64,000 bases of DNA from NCBI RefSeq assembly GCF_021462285.1, contig NZ_CP082787.1:4154001-4218000 (forward strand), written 5' to 3'. The notes under the pieces are model-generated. The model was not told the DNA's origin. It did no database searches and saw nothing but the letters and a program-made list of their open reading frames with translations. Position numbers and translations under genes: made by a program. Numbering within the stretch: position 1 is the first letter of the stretch; every line of letters begins with the position of its first letter. The DNA is from Serratia entomophila (GTDB taxonomy: Bacteria; Pseudomonadota; Gammaproteobacteria; Enterobacterales; Enterobacteriaceae). This document shows, piece after piece, positions 49,715-64,000 of this stretch.

Positions 49715-51334
49715 ATGCGTACTGATCCTATGGCTTACTCTTCCGCTCTGCCGGACGGCGCCGGCGACAAGCCCGCCATCTGGATCGTCTCCGTCACGCG
49801 CCTGTTTGACCTGCTGCGGGACATCAGCCTGGAATTCGACAGCCTGGCGAGCATCACCCCCATTCAGCTGGGCTTTGAAAAAGCCGTGCAGCATATCCGC
49901 CAAAAATTGCTCAGCGAGCGCTGCGACGTCATCATTGCCGCCGGCTCCAACGGCGCTTATTTGAAAAGCCGCCTTTCGGTGCCGGTGGTGCTGATCAAAC
50001 CGGGCGGCTTTGACATCGTTCAAGCCTTGGCCAAGGCGCGTCGCATGGCTTCGTCAATCGGCATCATTACCTATAAAAAAACGCTGCCGGAGCTGCTGGA
50101 ATTTCAGCACGCATTTGATTTGCAGCTGGAACAGCGCTGCTACGTCACCAAAGAGGAAGCGCGTGAACAGCTCAATGAATTAAAAGCGAAAGGCGTTCAG
50201 GCGGTGGTCGGCGCCGGGCTGATTACCGATCTGGCTCAGGAAGCGGCGCTTGCCGGCGTGCTCATCTATTCGACCTCCACGGTGCGCCAGGCCTTTCACG
50301 AAGCGCTGGGCAGGACGCGTTCCCTGCAAGGCGCCGCCCAAGCGCGCAAGCCCCCCTCCGGCCGCGAAACCCTGCGCGCGCGTTATGGGATAAACCATCT
50401 GCGTGGCGATTCGCCGATGATGGAGAAGCTTCGCCGCACGATTGCGCTTTATGGCCGCTCATCCGCCGCAGTGCTCATCCAGGGGGAAACCGGCACCGGT
50501 AAAGAGTTGGCCGCACAGGCCATTCACCAGGAATTCTTTTCCCGCCATGCGGCGGCTCCGTTCGTCGCTATCAACTGCGGCGCCATCGCCGAATCGCTGC
50601 TGGAAGCGGAGCTATTCGGTTATGAAGAGGGGGCGTTTACCGGCTCCCGTCGCGGAGGGCGCGCCGGCCTGTTTGAAACCGCCGACGGGGGGACGCTGTT
50701 TCTCGATGAGATCGGTGAAATGCCGCTGCCCCTGCAGAGCCGCTTGCTGCGCGTGCTGGAAGAAAAAGAAATCACCCGGGTTGGCGGACAGCGCCCTATT
50801 CCGGTGAAGGTGCGCATTATCAGCGCCACCCACTGCAGCCTGGAAAGCGCCGTGAACCGCAGCGAGTTTCGCCCCGATCTGTTTTATCGGCTCAATACGT
50901 TGCGCCTGAGCCTGCCCGCGCTGCGTGAGCGAGAGCAGGATGTGATGGAGCTGGCCCAGTGGTATCTGAAACAGGCGCTGGCGGAGCTGAACGTGCCATT
51001 TACCGCCGCCTGGATGCAGGGCATTTTTTCCTGCCGGCAACGGTTGCAGGGCTACAGCTGGCCCGGGAATATTCGCGAATTGCGCAATATGATGCAGCGG
51101 CTGGCGCTGTTTTTAAGCGCCGAACCCTCAGAGGCATTAAGTGAACAGAAGCTCTGCGGCTGGCTGCCGGAGCTGGTTTGCGCCGGGCTGGCGCCCGAGC
51201 CGCCTGCGCCCGTGGTATCAGACGTTCAGGCTGCCCTGGCGCAATTTAATGGCGATCGCGCCGCGACCGCGCGGTACCTCGGCATCAGCCGCACCACGCT
51301 GTGGCGGCGCCTGCGGGAAACGGGCCGCTCTTAG
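49715..51334 (+). CDS. prpR: Sigma-54-dependent propionate catabolism activator PrpR
   Basis: PrpR activates prpBCD in response to 2-methylcitrate. The 539-residue protein has an N-terminal PrpR_N sensor domain (about 20-195) and a central AAA+ domain (about 230-460) with Walker A GETGTGKE, the sigma-54 contact loop GAFTGS and Walker [14 protein letters not shown]-terminal Fis-type helix-turn-helix (about 500-535, [16 protein letters not shown]) follows. The loop ends in Ser instead of the usual Ala, which, as I recall, is also the case in E. coli PrpR. The start may be 49715 or 49730. It is divergent from prpB. Confidence 0.95.
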
Positions 51335-51360
51335 TTGCGGCAGAGCGGCCCGAGGCGCGG

Positions 51361-53526
51361 TTATTGCTTGATCATATAGCCGAAGATGCGCTTCCAGCCG
51401 TGATCCTTTTTCTCGATGTACACCCCCTGCAGCTCCGGCGAGAAGCCCGGCAGGCGGTTGATGCCCTCTTCCAGCGCCAGGAAGTAGCGCTGCACCGCCC
51501 CGCCCCACACTTCGCCCGGCACCACGCACAGCACGCCCGGCGGGTACGGCAGCGCGCCCTCCGCCGCAATGCGCCCTTCCGCCTGGCCGATCGGTACCAG
51601 CTCCACGTTGTCGCGAATAAACTCGACGTTGGCGTCCTGCGGGTTCATCACCACCGGCGGGAAGTGATCCTGACGGAACATCTCTTTCTGCAGCTGCTTG
51701 ACGTCGAAGCTGACGTACAGGTCGTGCATCTCCTGACACAGCCGGCGGATGCTGTAGCCGCGGTAACGCTGCTCGTTTTTGCGGTACACCGTCGGCAACA
51801 CCTGGCTCAGCGGCGCGTCTTCTGCCACATAGCGTTCGAACTGCACCAGCATCTCCACCAGCTGTTCCATCTTGGCCGGGTTCTCCGCCGGGGTCAGCAG
51901 GAACAGGATCGAGTTCAGGTCGCACTTCTCCGGCACGATGCCGTTCTCGCGCAGGAAGTTGGCCAGAATGGTGGCCGGCACGCCGAACTCGGTATATTGG
52001 CCGGTAGCGGCGTCAATACCCGGCGTAGTCAGCAGCAGCTTGCACGGGTCGACCAGATACTGATCCTGCGCATAGCCTTCAAAGCCGTGCCATTTTTCAC
52101 CCGGCACAAAGTTGAAGAAGCGGGCGTCGTTGGCGATGACGTCGGTCTCGTAGTCCTGCCAGTCTTTGCCCGCCACCTGCAGCGGGATAAAGGGCTTCAG
52201 CTGCGAGCAGCGCATCAGCAGCTGCTTGCGCGTTTCTATGCCGAGCTTCACGCAGTCCATCCACATGCGGCGGCCGGCGGCGCCGGCGTGCATCTTGGCG
52301 TTGACGTCCAGCGCGGCGAACAGCGGATAGAACGGGCTGGTAGATGCGTGCAGCATAAAGGCGTTGTTCAGGTGCTTATGGTTGCAGTGGCGCTTCTGCC
52401 CCTTGATGTGGTCGTCTTTCTTGTGGATCTGCGAGGTCTGCGAGAAACCGGCCTGCTGTTTGTGCACCGACTGGGTAACGAAGATGCCCGGATCGTGTTC
52501 GTCCAGCTCCAGCAACAGCGGCGAGCACTCTTTCAGCATCGGGATAAAGCCTTCGTAACCCACCCAGGCGGAGTCGAACAGGATGTAATCGCACAGGTGG
52601 CCAATGGTGTCGATCACCTGACGCGCATTGTAAATGGTGCCGTCATAGGTGCCGAGCTGGATGATCGCCAACCGGAACGGCCGCTGGGCGTTGGCCTTCT
52701 CCGGCGCCACTGCGCGGATCTGCTCGCGCAGGTAAGCTTCGTCAAAGCAGCGCGAATCCACGCCGCCGATAAAGCCGAACGGGTTGCGCGCGGTTTCCAG
52801 ATAGACCGGCGTCGCCCCGGCCTGGATCAGCGCGCCGTGGTGGTTGGACTTATGGTTGTTGCGATCGAACAGCACCAGATCGCCGCGGGTCAGCAGCGCG
52901 TTGGTCACCACCTTGTTGGAGGCGGAGGTGCCGTTGAGCACGAAATAGGTTTTATCGGCATTGAACACCCGCGCCGCATGCTTTTGCGCATCCTTGGCCG
53001 AACCTTCGTGGATCAACAGATCGCCCAGCTTGACGTCGGCGTTGCACATGTCGGAACGGAAAATGGTTTCGCCGTAAAATTCGAAGAACTTCCGGCCCGC
53101 CGGGTGTTTGCGGAAAAACTCGCCGCCCTGATGCCCCGGACAGGCAAAGGTGGAATTCTCCATCTCCACGTAGGTCTTCAGCGTTTTGAAGAACGGCGGC
53201 AGCAGCGCCTGCTCGTAGGCTTCGGCGGCGGCTTCCAGCTGCGCCATGTAAAACGGCTTGCTGGCGCCGGCCAACAGCGCAAATACGCCGCTGATAAACG
53301 GCAGATAATCCGGGGAAAGATGCTCATCCCCTTCAACAGCAACAAAGGTCGGGATGCCGAAACCGGTGGCCTTCAGCTGCGCCAGAATGCCGGCGTTCAC
53401 ATCGGCCACCGACACCACCGCCGCCGCCACGTCGGTATAGTCAGTCTGCTCTATCCGCACGATCTGACGCAGGGTTTCAATGGTGGCGACCAGGCTGGCG
53501 CTTGTTGCTATTTTCAATTCTTTCAT
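51361..53526 (-). CDS. speC: Constitutive-type ornithine decarboxylase SpeC
   Basis: SpeC decarboxylates ornithine to putrescine, the substrate of SpeE elsewhere in the window. The 721-residue PLP enzyme has the wing domain (about 1-110), and the large catalytic domain with the PLP lysine in SVHKQQAGFSQTS near residue 355. It resembles E. coli SpeC more than SpeF at diagnostic stretches (KLGDLLIHEGSAKDAQK, FDVKQLQKEMFRQ), and no potE follows. The start at 53526 (MKELKIA) fits the family. Upstream lies a long structured leader with a candidate leader peptide. Confidence 0.93.
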   Translation of the reverse strand: MKELKIATSASLVATIETLRQIVRIEQTDYTDVAAAVVSVADVNAGILAQLKATGFGIPTFVAVEGDEHLSPDYLPFISGVFALLAGASKPFYMAQLEAAAEAYEQALLPPFFKTLKTYVEMENSTFACPGHQGGEFFRKHPAGRKFFEFYGETIFRSDMCNADVKLGDLLIHEGSAKDAQKHAARVFNADKTYFVLNGTSASNKVVTNALLTRGDLVLFDRNNHKSNHHGALIQAGATPVYLETARNPFGFIGGVDSRCFDEAYLREQIRAVAPEKANAQRPFRLAIIQLGTYDGTIYNARQVIDTIGHLCDYILFDSAWVGYEGFIPMLKECSPLLLELDEHDPGIFVTQSVHKQQAGFSQTSQIHKKDDHIKGQKRHCNHKHLNNAFMLHASTSPFYPLFAALDVNAKMHAGAAGRRMWMDCVKLGIETRKQLLMRCSQLKPFIPLQVAGKDWQDYETDVIANDARFFNFVPGEKWHGFEGYAQDQYLVDPCKLLLTTPGIDAATGQYTEFGVPATILANFLRENGIVPEKCDLNSILFLLTPAENPAKMEQLVEMLVQFERYVAEDAPLSQVLPTVYRKNEQRYRGYSIRRLCQEMHDLYVSFDVKQLQKEMFRQDHFPPVVMNPQDANVEFIRDNVELVPIGQAEGRIAAEGALPYPPGVLCVVPGEVWGGAVQRYFLALEEGINRLPGFSPELQGVYIEKKDHGWKRIFGYMIKQ

Positions 53527-53559
53527 AGTGCTAACTCTCAAACTGTGAAGGATGAGGCT

Positions 53560-53736
53560 GTGCCACTGGCACGGTGATGAGATAACAAAGGTTATCCCGG
53601 CAAAGTGATGTCCGGCGGGGCAGCATAAAATGCCTGCGTGACCGGCTTATGATCGCAAGGCAATCAGGCAACTATCGGGACTGGTATCGGCAGCGTCCAA
53701 TAGACATCAGTAAAATCAGAGCCGCAGCTCTATTTT
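53560..53736 (-). promoter_or_regulatory. Structured leader of speC
   Basis: Three stem-loops lie between the candidate leader peptide and speC: GTGCCA-C-TGGCAC (53560-53572), GATAAC-AAAG-GTTATC (53581-53596), and a bulged stem AAAATcAGAGC/GCTCTATTTT (53712-53736, plus-strand view). On the minus strand the last is followed by TTTTACTG and looks like a weak terminator. The arrangement would suit attenuation of speC. Confidence 0.5.
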
Positions 53737-53768
53737 TAATAATGCCTAACGGCGAGCATCGGGTAGCC

Positions 53769-53885
53769 TTACCGCATGGTAAGCAAGGGGCTTCGGGTGT
53801 ACTGCGTTCGGCAGAGGCAACGGTGAAAGAATGGCATCATCAGATGTCTGGTGCGCGACGGCGCTTGTACAACAAAACCAGTCAT
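53769..53885 (-). CDS. Candidate 38-residue leader peptide upstream of speC
   Basis: This short frame starts with ATG, has AGAGGG 8 nt upstream, and ends about 240 bp before speC on the same strand. The peptide contains SRTRHLMMPFFHRC, which can be lined up with RTTHIMKFAHRN of the E. coli SpeFL arrest peptide (as I recall it) with one gap, matching R, T, H, M, F, H and R. The C-terminal FDFHFF part of SpeFL has no counterpart. It could be an ornithine-sensing leader, or a chance frame. Two longer frames overlap it and have poorer start sites. Confidence 0.4.
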   Translation of the reverse strand: MTGFVVQAPSRTRHLMMPFFHRCLCRTQYTRSPLLTMR

Positions 53886-54227
53886 GCCGGTAACCCTCTG
53901 ACATAAAGGAGCGGAAACACCGTTCAGGGAGGCGGGTGCTAAAAATTTGCGCAATGATTGCACGTTTTTTTATGAGGTTCAAGTAACAATCATGCCGCTT
54001 AAAATCATCGCCAATGACACATAACCCATTGTTATTTATATGATAAAAATTAAAGTCAATGAAATCAAAATGGTATAAATAAACAGCTTTTATGCATATC
54101 TATTACCCGCGGCCGCCGCGCCCCCTACCGCCGGCCGACGCCATTGACTGAAAATAGAGCAACCGATCGGCTTTGTGACAGAAAGCGATTGACGCCATCC
54201 GGCCAATACGGTTTAATGCGCCCCGTT
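53886..54227. other. Gap between speC leader and tRNA-Phe, no gene seen
   Basis: This AT-rich stretch should hold the speC promoter on the minus strand and the tRNA-Phe promoter on the plus strand. A GC-rich block near 54110-54135 contains only short low-complexity runs. No credible gene was found. Confidence 0.5.
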
Positions 54228-54303
54228 GCCCGGATAGCTCAGTCGGTAGAGCAGGGGATTGAAAATCCCCGTGTCCTTGGTTCGATTCCGAGTCCGGGCA
54301 CCA
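54228..54303 (+). tRNA. pheV: tRNA-Phe (GAA)
   Basis: The 76-nt sequence folds as a full cloverleaf: acceptor GCCCGGA with TCCGGGC, D-arm GCTC...GAGC, anticodon stem GGGGA/TCCCC with anticodon GAA at 54261-54263, T-arm with GGTTCGATTCC, and an encoded CCA end at 54301-54303. It follows speC as pheV does in E. coli, a common insertion site for genomic islands. Copy name is by position. Confidence 0.97.
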
Positions 54304-54313
54304 TATTTAGAAG

Positions 54314-54336
54314 AACCCGCCTATGGCGGGTTTTTT
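54314..54336 (+). terminator. Terminator of tRNA-Phe
   Basis: An 8-bp perfect stem AACCCGCC/GGCGGGTT with a 3-nt loop is followed by T residues, starting 10 nt after the tRNA. Confidence 0.93.
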
Positions 54337-54622
54337 GCTTTCTGAGGTATGGACTCTCCATCGAACGAGTTCGATTATTCGATCTTACGGCCTCACCCTA
54401 CCGGCACTTGAACGCAGACGTTTTGGCTGCCAGTACGCCAGATAAGAAGGGTGAAGAAGTGGTGAATCAGGCAATCAATATCACAAGGGTAATCATAGCG
54501 CGCCGTGAAACAACGATTGCTTCTGTCGATAGGTTAATTCGATTAATCTAGTTATCCTCATCCATATTCATCAGCAAATATGGATGAGGAAGATAATTAC
54601 CATGAAAACAATACGCTAAGCG
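54337..54622. other. Region after tRNA-Phe, no recognisable gene
   Basis: No integrase or other known gene is visible. One frame stays open on the plus strand to a stop near 54551, but it runs back through the tRNA and has no convincing start. The stretch may hold remnants of an inserted element. A strong hairpin lies at 54556-54589. Confidence 0.45.
54556..54589. other. Long perfect hairpin downstream of the putative immunity gene
   Basis: CCTCATCCATAT and ATATGGATGAGG form a 12-bp perfect stem around a 10-nt loop, 34 nt beyond the stop of the minus-strand gene at 54623. There is no U-tract, so it may protect the 3' end of the transcript or be a protein site. Confidence 0.6.
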
Positions 54623-54835
54623 TTATTTCTTTTTTGATGCATCAGGAAAGCAAAACTTGATAGCCATATCAAAAAGTTTCACAATCGCAAGTACAAAGAT
54701 AATTGTTATTACAAAAACAGAAAGATTTTTAGGCGCCGCATAAAATGTCGTAAATGCTACTCCCGCGCCGCTAAGCAACGATGCAGCAACAATAATACCT
54801 GCCATCGTGCTAAAAGAACGAAAGATAATGTTCAT
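54623..54835 (-). CDS. Putative microcin immunity protein (two membrane segments)
   Basis: This 70-residue protein has two predicted membrane segments (about residues 12-31, GIIVAASLLSGAGVAF..., and 38-58, LSVFVITIIFVLAIVKLF) and a basic tail ending KKK. I recognise no family. It starts about 60 nt after the stop of the microcin-like gene on the same strand, and its size and topology are those of small class II microcin immunity proteins such as Cvi (78 residues). The ATG at 54835 has GGTGA 5 nt upstream; an in-frame GTG at 54856 has no such site. The immunity role is inferred from position. Confidence 0.6.
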   Translation of the reverse strand: MNIIFRSFSTMAGIIVAASLLSGAGVAFTTFYAAPKNLSVFVITIIFVLAIVKLFDMAIKFCFPDASKKK

Positions 54836-54896
54836 ATTTATCACCGTAATCACCAAGCATAGGCAAGGTCTTGCCTATGCTTGAAATTATCTCCAA

Positions 54897-55238
54897 TTAC
54901 CAGCTACAACCGCCAGATCCATGTTTCCCGCTGCAGCTTCCGGCATCGCTTTTATTGCCTCCCTTACCCATGCCAACGTTACCGCCGCCACTTTTGCTGT
55001 CTTTGAAGCAGCCGCCGGCGAGAGCACCTATCGCTAGTCCTGCAGGGCCTTTCAGGCTGCCAGCGATTATGCCATTAACGCAGTCAGGCGAGGTATATTT
55101 CCCATAGAATCCGCCGGATTTACTTCCATCGTTTTTTGAACTGCTATTCGTTCTTCCACCATTATCAACACGATCGCCGCCATTATTGCCCTGGCCACCA
55201 GAGACGAAATCCAACATGGAAGGATCTAGAACTTTCAT
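54897..55238 (-). CDS. Candidate class II microcin precursor with double-glycine leader
   Basis: This 113-residue peptide begins MKVLDPSMLDFVSGG, which has the length and pattern of the colicin V (microcin V) leader MRTLTLNELDSVSGG. Cleavage after GG would release 98 residues. The mature part is glycine-, serine- and asparagine-rich, with a glycine-patterned hydrophobic core at 56-76 and cysteines at 53, 77, 102 and 111, enough for two disulfides. The ATG at 55238 has AAGGAG 6 nt upstream. A small membrane-protein gene follows, as an immunity gene would. The ABC exporter pair (CvaA/CvaB type) needed for export is not in the window. Activity is unproven. Confidence 0.75.
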   Translation of the reverse strand: MKVLDPSMLDFVSGGQGNNGGDRVDNGGRTNSSSKNDGSKSGGFYGKYTSPDCVNGIIAGSLKGPAGLAIGALAGGCFKDSKSGGGNVGMGKGGNKSDAGSCSGKHGSGGCSW

Positions 55239-55813
55239 ATGCAACTCCTTTTGAGGATGCAACGGACTAGTGTAAACTTATGTAAAGCCCAAAACCATTA
55301 ACCCATAGATGTCGATTTATCAATAGTCTTGATTAGAAAATTTGTCGTTATTGGGAAGGTGCTCATGTTTTTCTAAATGCCATGTATTCCACCAATTTCA
55401 ATATTATATTAAATAAAAATACTATGATTAAAAATCATAACATTAACCAATATTCACTCGATTACTCGAACGACGAAATCAATTCACCACATAACGCCGG
55501 CATGTCTTACCGGATGATGACGCCGTAGTTGGAAACCTATTCGGGGGTTGATGAACAATTGGGAAAGAACGTACGATAAGAAAATAATTCATTGTTTATT
55601 ATTAAACTTAATGTCATCAAAATTCATACCCGGCGAGTTTGTTCATCTATCCCCCTCTACTTTGTGTTTGACACAGGGGGCATTCACCCATGCTCATAAG
55701 TTTACCCTCAACCAGGCAAAGGAAGTGAAACGCATCAGGCACGGTTTTCGGGTCAAATACGTTGGATAAGTGGGTATACATCGATAATCCGCATGCCTTA
55801 CCCACAAATAGAA
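55239..55813. other. AT-rich stretch upstream of the microcin gene, no supported gene
   Basis: This region is strongly AT-rich compared with the rest of the window and should hold the microcin promoter on the minus strand. It includes a palindrome ATGATT-AAA-AATCAT (55424-55438). One 73-residue plus-strand frame (55548-55769) has no recognisable homology and no good ribosome-binding site, so I do not call it. No Fur-box-like site is clear. Confidence 0.45.
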
Positions 55814-56383
55814 CTAGAAAAGGCTATCTATTGTTAACAGCGCCTTGATTTTGTTGACATTCACCTCGCCATCAGTTGCAGAAACAAAGTGCTGCAATTG
55901 CCATTTTTGAGTTGTAATAGCCTGTTTCACAATGGGTTTAACCCAAGGAGCATAAACACGGATAGCTCTTTTCCCCTCCTTTCCCTTAACCGACATGACC
56001 CCTTTTTTCGCCAGTGCATGTCTGTTGAATATAAAAAGCCCTCTATGGGTATGATCAAAAACGCTCACCAATACGAACTCAATGCCATCGTCAAAATCGA
56101 TGGGCATAATCTCGTCTTGCACATGCGGTCTTTTCCACATAGTAACAAATTGCCCGAGTTTAGTTGGGGTCGTATTGGCGACGCGGAATAATGCTCGCTT
56201 GCCTTCCACCTCAAACTGACAGGCGCCATATTCGCTGCTCTCAGCTTCTCGTCGGGGTTCCGATATGCGAATTCCAGCAGGCAATAATACGTCGTTTATT
56301 ATATCAGAAAGTTGAACCGGTATTTTCCCTTTCGCCGGATCGGCAAACCAAGCGCCCTCAACGTCTTTACTACTTCCCAACAT
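55814..56383 (-). CDS. MepB family protein
   Basis: This 189-residue cytoplasmic protein matches the MepB family by its ordered motifs: EYGACQFEV near residue 51, TPTKLGQFVTMWKRP near 72-86, FDDGIEFVLVSV near 97-108, the FNRHALAKKGVMS stretch near 119-131, GKRAIRVYAPWVKP near 137-150 and KQAITTQKWQLQ near 153-164. MepB is named from the Staphylococcus mepRAB locus, but its function is unknown. The ATG at 56383 has AAGGA about 9 nt upstream. It lies in the AT-rich block after tRNA-Phe with no functional partner evident. Confidence 0.82.
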   Translation of the reverse strand: MLGSSKDVEGAWFADPAKGKIPVQLSDIINDVLLPAGIRISEPRREAESSEYGACQFEVEGKRALFRVANTTPTKLGQFVTMWKRPHVQDEIMPIDFDDGIEFVLVSVFDHTHRGLFIFNRHALAKKGVMSVKGKEGKRAIRVYAPWVKPIVKQAITTQKWQLQHFVSATDGEVNVNKIKALLTIDSLF

Positions 56384-56548
56384 ACTTCATTTCCTTCTTT
56401 AGTATCGGAGACTCTCTCGCCAACCATATCATAATGCTCTGCTTGCTCAGGAAGATGCGCGCAGAATATAAACCTGTTCGTAACACTACCACAATAGCAT
56501 GCAATCTCACTGTCCTTTTCAAACCACTCCCTGCATTCTCCCCCGACA

Positions 56549-57334
56549 TCAGCTGGCTTCCCTACGGCCAACAGCTTCCGAATTATATAGACAATACAAA
56601 CCATTACATCCAAGACCCCTTTCTTTTGGATACCCTAACGCATTGTTCACATAGTCAATATCATCGACTCTGAGGCTACGGGAAATATGACTGTGGCCGT
56701 AAACATGGGTATCGGGCTGAAGAATAGAGATCTGCTCCGCCAGTTTTTCAGATCCTAATACCGGGAAGATATATTTGAACGCCTCAGGAACAAAGTTCGG
56801 TAACAGTTTTGATGTTGGTAGAAAATGCGAAAAAGAAATGACAACATCATTTCTTGTATTGAGTCGCGAGATGTTTTTATCAAGAAAAAAATTCGTCACG
56901 TGCTGCAAATCCCAATTATCAGGCCACTTGCATGCATGAAAATCCATCCAACTGCCGAGCAATTTCTCAGTAGGTGAAGAAAAGGAAAAATCATACCAAC
57001 TGAGCAAAGGCACGATTGATACGCTGCCATGGTGATAGACATCCATGGAAACGCCGCACCGCTCAGTAAGCTGGCAAATCTGCTCAAACTTTCTGATCGA
57101 TGTGGGCATGCTATCGCGAATAACCCAAAGCTCATGATTGCCCGGCACGAAGAGCACCTTTTTGAAACGGCGGGCAAGAAAGGTAAAACACTGCTCAAGC
57201 CTGTTCAACTCGTCACTTACATCGCCCGCCACAAGCAACACATCGTCAGTATAATCGGCATCAAATGCATTAAAGAACCACTTGGCATTGCCATCAAAGT
57301 CGATATGGAGATCGGAGATTGCGTAAACTTTCAT
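56549..57334 (-). CDS. Calcineurin-like metallophosphoesterase
   Basis: This 261-residue cytoplasmic protein has the metallophosphoesterase motifs in order: D8-x-H10 (SDLHID), GDVSDE with D38, GNHE at residues 65-68, a His in FSHF near 180, and GHSH near 225. It would bind two metals and hydrolyse a phosphoester; the substrate is unknown. The ATG at 57334 has a G-rich ribosome-binding site and begins MKVYAISDLH; the upstream in-frame extension overlaps the PKS terminator. It lies downstream of that terminator on the same strand, so it is probably transcribed separately from the PKS. Confidence 0.88.
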   Translation of the reverse strand: MKVYAISDLHIDFDGNAKWFFNAFDADYTDDVLLVAGDVSDELNRLEQCFTFLARRFKKVLFVPGNHELWVIRDSMPTSIRKFEQICQLTERCGVSMDVYHHGSVSIVPLLSWYDFSFSSPTEKLLGSWMDFHACKWPDNWDLQHVTNFFLDKNISRLNTRNDVVISFSHFLPTSKLLPNFVPEAFKYIFPVLGSEKLAEQISILQPDTHVYGHSHISRSLRVDDIDYVNNALGYPKERGLGCNGLYCLYNSEAVGRREAS

Positions 57335-57347
57335 ATACCCCCCTTTT

Positions 57348-57387
57348 AAAAGACCCCCTCCAAATGTACCGCATCCTGGAGAGGGCC
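57348..57387 (-). terminator. Terminator of the PKS operon
   Basis: On the minus strand GGCCCTCTCC pairs with GGAGGGGGTC (10 bp, two G-U pairs) around a 16-nt loop and is followed by TTTT. It lies 10 nt after the PKS stop codon. Confidence 0.75.
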
Positions 57388-57396
57388 ATTTCACGG

Positions 57397-60300
57397 CTAC
57401 TGCTCGCTTTGCATAATCAACTGATTCAACTTTTGCGCCAATGCCGTAGTCAACGGCGGATACACATGCTGTCCTGTATGCCGATATTCCATCGCGCCTT
57501 CATAGGCACGTTTGAAATGCGGCGCTTCAGCAAGAAATACCGGCATATCGTTATCGCCGACAATCTGTAGCATCGGCAGCGGCAATCCGCCCACCTTGTC
57601 GAATACCCCCTCGCGCTCATGAATCGGCGAGCGCCAAGGCGACATCGCAATAAAGAACTTAATGTCCTGCAAGCCCAGCTCTTCGCCCAGATGCTGGAGG
57701 TGGAGCGCAACGGACGCCACGGCGGCCCCTTCGCAGAATCCGGCAATGCCTTCAAAAGGACCGTAATGCTGCGCCAGCTCTTTGACGTAAGTCAGCGTTG
57801 AACGCCATATGTCACGTTCTTGCGCGGATATCGCCTGGGGCTCACTACCATGGAACTCTTCCCACAGTCGCTCGAACCCCGCTTTCCACTCTTTGTATTT
57901 CCCCTGCGTGTCATACACCCCGCTCTCGACAAGCTGCGTTAAGCCAATTTGCTGCAGCTGAATTTCGTTGGTAAATGCCGGCATTTCATAAGGCGCATCC
58001 GGTATGACGAATTCAAGATCCGTGCGGGCGCTCCAGCCCGTGCGCTCAAGCAACGATTTCGCTAACCGGGCATTCGTTCCCTGACCGGACAAGAACAGCA
58101 CCCGACGGCGGCGCGGCACATATACGGACATCGCTCCGAATCGCTCATGGGTGTAACGTTTCTCTACCGGCGCTGCGGGATTCCGGCGGTGCAAGAGCGA
58201 CATGGCGGGCTCCAGCAATTGCCAAAGCGCCGTCATATTCTCTTCTGTCGCGCCCAGCAGTTGGGCATAGTTTCGCCATTCATTTTCACGTTCAACCAGG
58301 AAGCGATCGAAGGGATAAAGCTCGGCGGTACGCGCCGCCACCGTTTTCTTAGCCGGTTCAATGAAGTCCCACAGCTCCATAAAAATGCGTTCGGCATTGG
58401 TTGTTTTTTGGGACTCCGTCATGATGCGCGATAAAGAATTGTCGAATGCCGACGGATTTTGTCGGAAATGAACATAGGCGCTTGCAAACGCCTGTACGAA
58501 GAACGCATAGCTGGAACAAAGCAAAGTGCGCACTTTCCTCGGCACCTGCGCCCCGTCATTGTAAGTGAAGAGGTTGGGATCGCCGTTTATCCAAAGGCCT
58601 TTCACCGTCATGTCCTGGCCAAATATGCCCGGCAATAAGGATGTGTCGGTATCCGATCCCAAACACTTCAGGAACACATCCGCCTCAATCTCTTTCCCCT
58701 TCCGAGTAATGAGGCCATGGCCGGTCATCCTGTCGACTTCATCCTCGACGATGGTGAGTTTTCCAAGCATTTGGGCGAGGAAGAACAGATCGGAGCCCGG
58801 CGGAACCGTGGTTTGATCAAGCAACAAATCGCCGTTTTTGTCGCGGCTAATGGACGGTAACGTTTCTATATCGATGCCGCATGCCTGGTAAAAGGGACGC
58901 ATGATCTCGACGACGTCGGCAACCGGCATCACGCCGTTGCTGGAATTGAGCAGCCAATTGCAAAACGTCGACAGGACGAGATTGCGACGACGGCATAACA
59001 ATGTGACGTGCTTCGCGCCATTTTCCAGGGCCGTGCGCATATTTTCTATAGCGAATGCCCCGTGTCCAACAATCACCACAGAAGCCCCGTTAAAGGCCGT
59101 GACCGCCGTATCGTTGCCGATCCCCTGCCCGATGTGTCCGCTAAAACGCTCTTCGTCAGGGAAACGATGCTGCACCGGGCGGTGCAACCCTCCCGTCATC
59201 GCCGCAACCCCAGACACCAGTACATCGTGCGATTGCCCGTCTTTCAGATAAGTGGCGAGGTATTCGTTATCGCCTTTCTTTTCTACGCGCTGCACTTCGC
59301 AGCCGAAGAGAACGTCCCCTTTTAATGTTTTTGCGACCGTCCCCGCCCCTTCAAGGATCTCGGCCCGGCCAGGAAATCCTTTATTCCACCGATGATCGCC
59401 GATTAATGGCAAATGGTTGCTGTCGAAGTCATACGCAGGGGAGTCTATTTGCAGCTTCGAATCATCATTCGCCAGGTTTTTCCAGACGCCGCCCGCCCAG
59501 TCGTTCTTCTCGAGCACCAAAACGGAGAGGCCATTTTTCTCCAGCTGCCGCGCAAAGCCCAATCCGCCGACGCCGGCCCCGATGACCAGCACCGGCAACG
59601 ATGAGACGGCGCGCTCTGGTTGCGCCTTGGACAAAGCGGCGCCAATTACCGGTTTTTGCGCCATGACATAGCGCACCATGGCGTTGATATCTGGGTTTTC
59701 AAGCGCGAAAGTCGCCGGCAGCCCCATTTTCAAAGAGGACGCGATCCGATTGCGCAAAGACATGCTCCCCAGCGAGTCCAGACCATTCTCCAGTAAAGCG
59801 ACATCGTCATCGACCGATTCCCCGACCGTTTCCCAAACGGCCTCGCGTATCATCTGGCGAATGTCCTGGACCTCCTCCATCGGGGAGGCGCTCGGGCGCG
59901 GTTTCAACGTGTCGAACAATGGGCTTGCTAGTTTGACACGCGCCCACTCTATCGGCGAAACCAGGAAGGTGCCGGCGCTGCCTGACGACAAAAGCTTGCC
60001 GAGCATTTCACAACCCAGCGCATTGCTGATGGCACCAAAGCCGGCGCTTTCCGCGCGGCGCACCGCATCATGTCGCACCGCCATGCCGTTTTCAGACCAG
60101 GCTCCCCACTGAATGGAAAGGGCTTTTTCGCCGGCCTGCGACCAATGCTCCGCTAAAGCGTCGAGGCCGCTATTGGCCGCCGCATAGCTCGCCTGCCCAA
60201 CGGAGCCGAACGCTGCGGCGGCGGAGGAATACAGCACCATAAAATCGTTTGGCGCCAGAATGTCATGCAGATATTTCGCGCCGTTCACTTTCACAGCCCG

Positions 60301-61236
60301 CGCGTGAGCCAGCATCGACGGCGTCTGCTTAAGCAATGTGCCATCGGTTAACAGGCCCGCGATATGAATCACGCCTGCGACTGCCGGCCACCCCTGCGCC
60401 TGCAGCCAGGCGGGGATCGTCTCCACCTGCTGACGGTCCGCCACGTCACACGTCAGGCTGGCAACCGCAACATTGCCCCCCAGCGTCGGTAAATCTGCCG
60501 GAGAATAAGCGGTTCGCGACAACAGCAGCACATGCGTCGCCCCCTGTGTCGCCAGATAGCCGGCGACGACTTGTCCCAGCGCTCCCATACCACCGCTGAG
60601 GACATAGGTTGCGCCCGCACGAATTCCCGTGCTGTCGCTATTCTGCGCTTGATAACGCTGTAGCCGCGGCGACTGTACGCCGCCTGAATCGCTCAGGCGG
60701 CATTCTTCCTCGCTATCCCCGCGAAGACACAATGACAGCGCCTGCGCCAATTGTTCCGGCAAGCACTCGATATATCGCAACACTCGCTCCGGTTGCTCTT
60801 GCCGTGCAGTGCGAACCAACCCGCTTAAGCCCGCATCACCCAGTGCGCCGGTTCGTTTCAACAGGACTAAACGCGGTACCGGTTTTGCCTGCAACACGGC
60901 CAAGGCCTGCGCGACATCCTCCTCTTCCCCTTCGCTCAATACCGCCACCGTTTGCCAGGCTTGTTCATCGAGCACGGCGCCTACCCCCTCCGCCCCAACG
61001 GCAACCATACCGACCCATCCCGCCGGCAGATTCGCCGGCACCGCATGCCGTGACAGCAGCAAGTGGGGGCCTGGGTTAGCCTCTCCCTTTTCTGGCAGTG
61101 CCTGGTCAACCCAGACCATCGTGTAAAGCGGGTCCGACACCTTCCCCGCCGGCGTATCGGTGTGCGTCGCAGGTTTTACTTCTGACTTAGCCCAAGCCAA
61201 TGGCTTATGTTTAAATAAAGGCGATCGTTTACTCAC
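57397..61236 (-). CDS. Hybrid PKS protein: ketoreductase-ACP-flavin monooxygenase-alpha/beta hydrolase
   Basis: This 1279-residue protein is unusual. Residues 1-440 are a ketoreductase with its structural half; the NADPH motif GGMGALG is at 215-221, with S338, Y351 and N355. An acyl carrier domain follows (about 455-525) with phosphopantetheine Ser488 in GLDSLG. Residues 547-1000 form a flavin monooxygenase-like domain with FAD motif GAGVGG at 553-558 and a second dinucleotide site near 724. The C-terminal domain (about 1043-1279) resembles FSH1-type serine hydrolases, but the nucleophile elbow is GFCEG with Cys1168; D1228 and H1257 are likely partners. It starts with GTG 15 bp after the upstream PKS gene, and probably finishes, oxidises and releases the polyketide. 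Confidence 0.88.
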   Translation of the reverse strand: MSKRSPLFKHKPLAWAKSEVKPATHTDTPAGKVSDPLYTMVWVDQALPEKGEANPGPHLLLSRHAVPANLPAGWVGMVAVGAEGVGAVLDEQAWQTVAVLSEGEEEDVAQALAVLQAKPVPRLVLLKRTGALGDAGLSGLVRTARQEQPERVLRYIECLPEQLAQALSLCLRGDSEEECRLSDSGGVQSPRLQRYQAQNSDSTGIRAGATYVLSGGMGALGQVVAGYLATQGATHVLLLSRTAYSPADLPTLGGNVAVASLTCDVADRQQVETIPAWLQAQGWPAVAGVIHIAGLLTDGTLLKQTPSMLAHARAVKVNGAKYLHDILAPNDFMVLYSSAAAAFGSVGQASYAAANSGLDALAEHWSQAGEKALSIQWGAWSENGMAVRHDAVRRAESAGFGAISNALGCEMLGKLLSSGSAGTFLVSPIEWARVKLASPLFDTLKPRPSASPMEEVQDIRQMIREAVWETVGESVDDDVALLENGLDSLGSMSLRNRIASSLKMGLPATFALENPDINAMVRYVMAQKPVIGAALSKAQPERAVSSLPVLVIGAGVGGLGFARQLEKNGLSVLVLEKNDWAGGVWKNLANDDSKLQIDSPAYDFDSNHLPLIGDHRWNKGFPGRAEILEGAGTVAKTLKGDVLFGCEVQRVEKKGDNEYLATYLKDGQSHDVLVSGVAAMTGGLHRPVQHRFPDEERFSGHIGQGIGNDTAVTAFNGASVVIVGHGAFAIENMRTALENGAKHVTLLCRRRNLVLSTFCNWLLNSSNGVMPVADVVEIMRPFYQACGIDIETLPSISRDKNGDLLLDQTTVPPGSDLFFLAQMLGKLTIVEDEVDRMTGHGLITRKGKEIEADVFLKCLGSDTDTSLLPGIFGQDMTVKGLWINGDPNLFTYNDGAQVPRKVRTLLCSSYAFFVQAFASAYVHFRQNPSAFDNSLSRIMTESQKTTNAERIFMELWDFIEPAKKTVAARTAELYPFDRFLVERENEWRNYAQLLGATEENMTALWQLLEPAMSLLHRRNPAAPVEKRYTHERFGAMSVYVPRRRRVLFLSGQGTNARLAKSLLERTGWSARTDLEFVIPDAPYEMPAFTNEIQLQQIGLTQLVESGVYDTQGKYKEWKAGFERLWEEFHGSEPQAISAQERDIWRSTLTYVKELAQHYGPFEGIAGFCEGAAVASVALHLQHLGEELGLQDIKFFIAMSPWRSPIHEREGVFDKVGGLPLPMLQIVGDNDMPVFLAEAPHFKRAYEGAMEYRHTGQHVYPPLTTALAQKLNQLIMQSEQ

Positions 61237-61251
61237 AAATAACTCCCTGTA

Positions 61252-64000
<2,749 letters not shown>

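Follow-up and report, generated by a model that had tools for sequence, protein, structure and literature searches.

The window, a 64,000-nucleotide stretch of the Serratia entomophila chromosome, encodes a pair of small genes that very probably specify a microcin S-like peptide, likely of class IIa, together with its likely immunity protein. The two genes form an apparent operon that has no exporter genes of its own save for the 3' stump of one, and the peptide would be exported in trans. The pair and its associated elements are as follows.

54897..55238, minus strand: likely class IIa microcin precursor of 113 aa with four cysteines and a microcin S-like core (ORF, relatives, comparison with microcin S, constraint).
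55245..55249, minus strand: ribosome-binding site AGGAG (from the sequence; identical or a near variant in 8 aligned loci).
55194..55238, minus strand: double-glycine leader, residues 1-15 (MKVLDPSMLDFVSGG), with predicted cleavage by a C39 peptidase transporter (pattern; 15/15 residues identical in an exporter-linked paralogue).
55152..55193, minus strand: residues 16-29 (QGNNGGDRVDNGGR), a conserved module at the start of the predicted mature peptide (between unlike cores pN is 0.10, compared with 0.24 in the leader; synonymous sites have diverged).
54847..54889, minus strand: hairpin between the precursor and immunity genes (-22.6 kcal/mol, z -4.8 against base shuffles; stem also present in genome G009).
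54623..54835, minus strand: putative immunity protein of 70 aa with two predicted membrane helices and an SGAGV...APxNLS-like middle (homologues, linkage, hydropathy and alignment, model).

The precursor frame starts with an ATG at 55238, ends with a stop at 54897, and begins with the leader followed by QGNNGGDR; its cysteines occupy positions 53, 77, 102 and 111, and AGGAG is located six bases upstream of the ATG. The frame length, GG leader, strong ribosome-binding site and four cysteines given in the preliminary description of this locus were thus confirmed in the sequence. A double-glycine leader of the GG or GA type on a short precursor is characteristic of class II microcins, and a microcin-type leader pattern, set by us from known class II leaders, heads only this one among the frames of 40-150 residues in the window; 20 base-shuffled windows contained one match in total. 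The precursor has no Pfam or NCBIfam match, and its structure model (mean pLDDT 48) was too poor for a disulfide pattern and was left unused. A promoter scan found no sigma-70-like site on the strand of the pair. An upstream direct repeat, TTTACA-N4-TTTACA, appeared general in the 8 aligned loci, but an exact search recovered it in 4 of 25, and it was dropped as a family feature.

The second frame starts 61 bases downstream of the precursor on the same strand and encodes the 70-residue protein, in which hydropathy analysis recognises two hydrophobic stretches, in agreement with the two-helix membrane protein described earlier. A model built on an alignment of only 3 sequences places helices at residues 2-33 and 38-62 (mean pLDDT 68.6). 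The protein has three sub-cut-off hits in Pfam and none in NCBIfam, and the search with it found only two clusters. By position and conservation it is likely the immunity protein of the pair. The stability of the intergenic hairpin varies among the 13 pair loci, with z of -2.6 or lower in six and from -1.9 to +1.9 in the other seven (base shuffles).

The class IIa reading of the preliminary description is supported, but its view of the microcin as undescribed-looking calls for correction. Among named microcins the mature peptide is related to microcin S (McsS/McsI/McsA/McsB), encoded on plasmid pSYM1 of E. coli G3/10 and tested as antibacterial (PMC3316575). In addition, according to Parker et al. 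(March 2026, PMC13101503), 96% of 1,621 S. marcescens assemblies carry putative class II microcins, so that the kind is known; 17 of the S. marcescens class II microcins are given as antibacterial, and by the figures of that paper 23 of 40 tested candidates were inactive. The published set, SM001-SM080, has the genus, the class and the small, there mostly unannotated, immunity genes in common with the pair described here. The host differs: bases 1-15000 of contig C2 of the own genome (L125) are 100% identical to plasmids of about 150 kb from S. entomophila and S. proteamaculans, which points to S. entomophila or a neighbour. The names MccS and 'microcin S' are absent from the main text of PMC13101503, and within the open literature searched no paper deals with this locus by its title or the start of its abstract.

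The microcin S precursor, as read from pSYM1 (NC_019013.1), matches that of the window in length, GG leader and glycine-rich core; its four cysteines align with those of the window precursor, and both peptides have a glycine-rich C-terminal pattern ending in C-S-R/W. The identity in the alignment is 33%. The Smith-Waterman score has a z of 10.6 and was reached by none of 1000 composition-keeping shuffles (z 9.6 for the mature parts alone). A profile of nine close relatives made without microcin S gives microcin S 31.1 bits; of 2000 shuffles, the best reaches 4.9. With a mature-only profile the mature part scores 27.3 against 5.3 for the best shuffle. The mature sequences are therefore homologous, including the four cysteines. 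However, the GNNGGDRxDNGGR module following the leader sets the window precursor apart from microcin S, and there is no linked exporter of the mcsA/mcsB type, only a 3' remnant. The immunity proteins also speak against a microcin S-type identity, as they are unlike: McsI has 216 residues and is annotated as a CAAX endopeptidase (PMC3316575), whereas the window encodes a two-helix protein of 70 residues without any above-cut-off Pfam match. In genome G001 (L120:5091-5741), a microcin with another core adjoins a CAAX-type protein (PF02517) of 216 residues, which is as long as McsI and belongs to its family. With microcin V (cvaC/cvi/cvaA/cvaB) the pair shares the leader type, the logic of precursor plus immunity gene and the C39 transporter route (described in part in PMC9746304), but the preliminary description gave the mature sequence as unlike, and the exporter of the window pair is unlinked.

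A protein search with the precursor yielded 14 relatives, all named ones from Serratia; the relative P0002 is 83% identical. A relative on a plasmid of S. marcescens FY adjoins genes annotated as 'peptidase domain-containing ABC transporter' and 'HlyD family secretion protein'. A profile including microcin S gave at least 103 matches at E 0.01 or better among 7985 candidates scored, and the named genera among the matches listed are Serratia, Klebsiella, Escherichia, Enterobacter, Cronobacter, Erwinia and Pantoea, in addition to an unclassified member of the Enterobacteriaceae. Hits assigned by name to Klebsiella, Escherichia, Enterobacter, Cronobacter, Erwinia or Pantoea all lack the motif NNGGDR, and microcin S-like members with GA leaders have a different N-terminus. 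All 15 aligned sequences retain GG or GA at the end of the leader, and the genus matches are confined to open frames of 50-147 residues, which gives no sign of a larger non-bacteriocin protein, within a protein search limited in length such that much larger homologues would not have shown.

In the genus, precursor matches occupy 27 places in 18 of 30 genomes, our own included. An immunity homologue is located 64-102 bases from the precursor at 13 of these loci and 289 bases away at one more, so that the co-conservation proposed as a check in the preliminary description is indeed found. The remaining 13 have no 70-aa homologue nearby; 11 of them are other cores, core types being assigned by our own reading, and several of the other-core precursors are followed by a different small hydrophobic frame. 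The unlike-core relatives were recovered through the leader and linker; the sharing of these parts is real, in a set that was selected by them. Homologues of the 70-aa protein occur at 18 places in 15 of the 30 genomes, again with our own included, and 14 are within 1 kb of a precursor. The four without a precursor hit at that distance are in our own genome at 2.026 Mb and in G024, G002 and G016, the last adjoining an apparently truncated microcin. Immunity-type genes with no intact precursor hit close by were seen at L122:4000-4212 (own genome, 2.026 Mb), L123:4486-4704 and L036:733-1415, where three such frames follow one another next to a short leader match.

Both frames behave as genes. 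In the nearest relative of the precursor, that of G009 (95 of 115 aligned positions identical), synonymous differences per site amount to 0.70 in codons 1-29, 0.77 in codons 30-46 and 0.68 in the core, against non-synonymous values of 0.07, 0.35 and 0.07, respectively; codons 30-46 are thus weakly kept. The constraint on the precursor includes the time before the presumed loss of the exporter. Compared with that of G009, the immunity gene has 15 codons with synonymous and 9 with non-synonymous differences. A wider comparison was based on the 28 loci L011-L038, of which L020 and L036 were left out and L028, with an internal stop, has no gene model; exclusion of five GA-leader models from the resulting 25 left 20 GG-type precursors, compared in pairs that are not independent. 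Residues 16-29 show 0.10 non-synonymous differences per site between unlike cores and 0.09 within the ten microcin S-like precursors, the leader 0.24 and 0.26, respectively. The core of the microcin S-like group has 0.23; residues 30-46 are the least kept (0.41). Synonymous differences are 0.64-0.76 between cores and 0.54-0.71 within the group. As judged from these alignments, the first 14 mature residues are under more constraint than the leader, also across unlike cores, which is a new observation. Since synonymous sites are diverged and non-synonymous differences low, the 14-residue module is kept as protein and not by recent copying; a second export signal or a shared killing step would both fit. 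Gene conversion as a family-wide cause of the conserved leader and linker was rejected because the synonymous codons differ. For the two copies in our own genome, the synonymous divergence is 0.34 in codons 1-29 versus 0.88 in the core, and a local exchange between them is possible, the numbers being small.

Beyond the immunity gene lie a further hairpin, the exporter stump and a tRNA gene.

54555..54590, minus strand: hairpin of 15 bp in the gap from the immunity gene to the exporter remnant (z -3.8; of 200 shuffles, 1 reached its stability), which the terminator scan did not call.
54426..54542, plus strand: remnant of a peptidase-containing ABC transporter gene, residues 656-697 of 699 (tblastn E 2.9e-9, 42 aligned columns at 67% identity, three residues being deleted; blastn to intact cassettes).
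54228..54303, plus strand: tRNA-Phe (GAA), beside which G015 has a microcin cassette too (tRNA scan, locus comparison).

It had been stated earlier that the window contains no exporter. This stands insofar as a search for the C39 domain gave no match in the window, but the fragment at 54426-54542 had been overlooked. It is a 39-codon stump of the 3' end of an exporter gene, on the strand facing the immunity gene, and a blastn comparison of window positions 50001-64000 with intact cassettes returned a match at 54430-54550. The intact cassettes are those of G009 (L118) and G015 (L117), in which open frames for adaptor and transporter are followed, on the opposite strand, by the immunity and precursor genes; the precursor relatives are 2.0 and 2.1 kb, respectively, from a C39 match. 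The remnant thus occupies the convergent place of the transporter 3' end in these two genomes, which is a new observation, and from it we infer that an exporter was lost from this locus in the past. No adaptor was found at the remnant site or in the window by tblastn with the three adaptors tried, and the flanks of the 27 precursor loci (about 1.5 kb on each side) hold no second exporter stump.

The pair is flanked by the tRNA-Phe gene, with 319 bases between the tRNA end and the immunity stop, and by a MepB-like gene at 55814-56383. Further on, at 57397-63978, the window holds large multidomain frames that by reading resemble polyketide and non-ribosomal-peptide genes. Among 31 loci scanned, that of the window is the only one with a tRNA in its flanks. 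The whole cassette of G015 lies by the same tRNA-Phe and speC in the opposite orientation, and among the 30 tRNA-Phe loci examined a precursor match was present at two, those of the window and G015; three of the 30 are cut by contig ends, and six (two in full-size and four in reduced genomes) match the tRNA-side part of the query only and may therefore be different sites. The 3' end of the tRNA is not repeated elsewhere in the window. The reading of tRNA-Phe as an integration site was set aside, and because the G015 cassette is oppositely oriented, common descent at this site is not claimed. The tRNA-Phe 3' end with downstream bases recurs at a spacing of about 160 bases in several genomes of the genus.

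The search for a peptidase-containing exporter elsewhere, suggested in the preliminary description, found five C39 peptidase ABC transporters in the own genome, four with an HlyD-family match just upstream (one adaptor interrupted), and four TolC-type matches above the cut-off. The transporter, adaptor and TolC typical of class II export are hence all encoded in the producing cell, unlinked to the pair. With the G009 cassette transporter, the transporter at 2.38 Mb shares 93% identity and that at 2.51 Mb 90%, and each is 84% identical to that of G015; two further ones reach about 60%. The peptidase Cys-His-Asp motif is present in all eight transporters compared, including those at 2.38 and 2.51 Mb. 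A paralogous precursor adjoins the open 2.51 Mb transporter gene and is accompanied by a 35%-identical immunity homologue. It is 81% identical to the window precursor in the search alignment (90 of 121 positions in the global alignment), and all 15 leader residues are the same. The 2.51 Mb adaptor frame is cut off by an in-frame stop after 142 codons, that at 2.38 Mb is open over 424 codons. The finding of a paralogue that shares the leader and accompanies an open exporter gene and an interrupted adaptor gene is likewise new here.

Across the genus, a C39 exporter is present in all 18 genomes with a precursor versus 6 of 12 others (Fisher p 0.0016, uncorrected for kinship or genome size). At 21 of 27 loci the distance from the precursor to a C39 match exceeds 6 kb, or the contig has no such match; life without a linked exporter is therefore common in the genus.

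Two clusters, L006:4803-10229 (own genome, 2.38 Mb) and L119:5191-11482 (G009), combine a glycine-rich peptide with a GG leader, a small protein, a TcdA/TcdB-type glycosyltransferase (PF12919, E 2.5e-28 and 5.6e-25, respectively), an adaptor and a C39 transporter; L119 also encodes a family 2 glycosyltransferase. They possibly specify a glycosylated microcin. Further microcin-like peptides with GA leaders (L008:3624-4957 and L009:12695-12988) are located by two nearly identical (99%) C39 transporters of the own genome.

The secretion, killing and immunity that we infer from these genes would proceed as follows. The GG leader would be recognised by a peptidase-containing ABC transporter, which would cut the precursor after Gly15, and the peptide would leave the cell via this transporter, an HlyD-type adaptor and TolC, all with genes at other places in the chromosome. 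The most likely transporter is that at 2.51 Mb and/or 2.38 Mb, with the 2.38 Mb adaptor, proposed because an in-frame stop interrupts the 2.51 Mb adaptor gene. The mature peptide of 98 residues may enter related Enterobacterales through an outer-membrane receptor by means of its cysteine-rich C-terminal part, and its glycine-patterned hydrophobic part may damage or block an inner-membrane target, which the two-helix protein would guard in the producer.

The same genes would also fit a peptide that is no longer made or exported, with the immunity gene kept against the microcins of relatives and the precursor as a passenger. The exporter remnant, the interrupted adaptor by the paralogue and the four immunity homologues that have no precursor hit in the surrounding 1 kb, including that of the own genome, point that way, and the pair may be on its way to decay. 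Against this, the precursor frame, leader, ribosome-binding site and cysteines are intact and open homologous exporter genes are present in the same genome; moreover, with 21 of 27 genus precursors far from a C39 match or on contigs lacking one, distance from an exporter alone is no sign of death. We regard a mere passenger as unlikely.

C39 exporters also serve other GG-leader peptides, and a 2025 paper reportedly connects bacteriocin-like peptides with gonococcal autolysis; the peptide might thus act in signalling or self-lysis and not as an interspecies bacteriocin. The co-conservation of a small membrane partner with the core and the homology to microcin S, with its tested antibacterial activity (PMC3316575), make this quite improbable. 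A siderophore microcin of class IIb, which the glycine/serine-rich C-terminus might recall, is scarcely credible: the precursor ends in GGCSW and has no serine-rich tail for siderophore attachment, the scanned neighbours are MepB-like and metallophosphoesterase genes instead of linked modification genes, and PMC13101503 reports the IIb motif in none of 93 S. marcescens microcins. An exported microcin S-like peptide with its immunity protein thus remains the preferred reading.

Taken side by side, the loci suggest a series of erosion, new here, from a full cassette to the pair only and then to a lone immunity gene. A wider proposal, to which we give rather less than even chances, is that a common pool of exporters takes the Serratia microcins as interchangeable cargo, that the GNNGGDRxDNGGR module found on several unlike cores acts as a second signal, for export or for activity, and that cassettes erode in the order exporter, toxin and, last, immunity gene, with the window between the first and second steps.

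Through this pair microcin S, which has a name but has been little studied, is connected with a Serratia family whose immunity protein is of another kind. The text of PMC13101503 leaves undecided which exporter serves which microcin, and the leader held in common with a paralogue next to a defined transporter makes such an assignment testable; the conserved module after the cleavage site could likewise be tested in a laboratory export system. The exporter stump, still in place, documents directly in the genome how a microcin can come to be unlinked, and the locus is an unusually clear record of how a microcin pair gets stranded.
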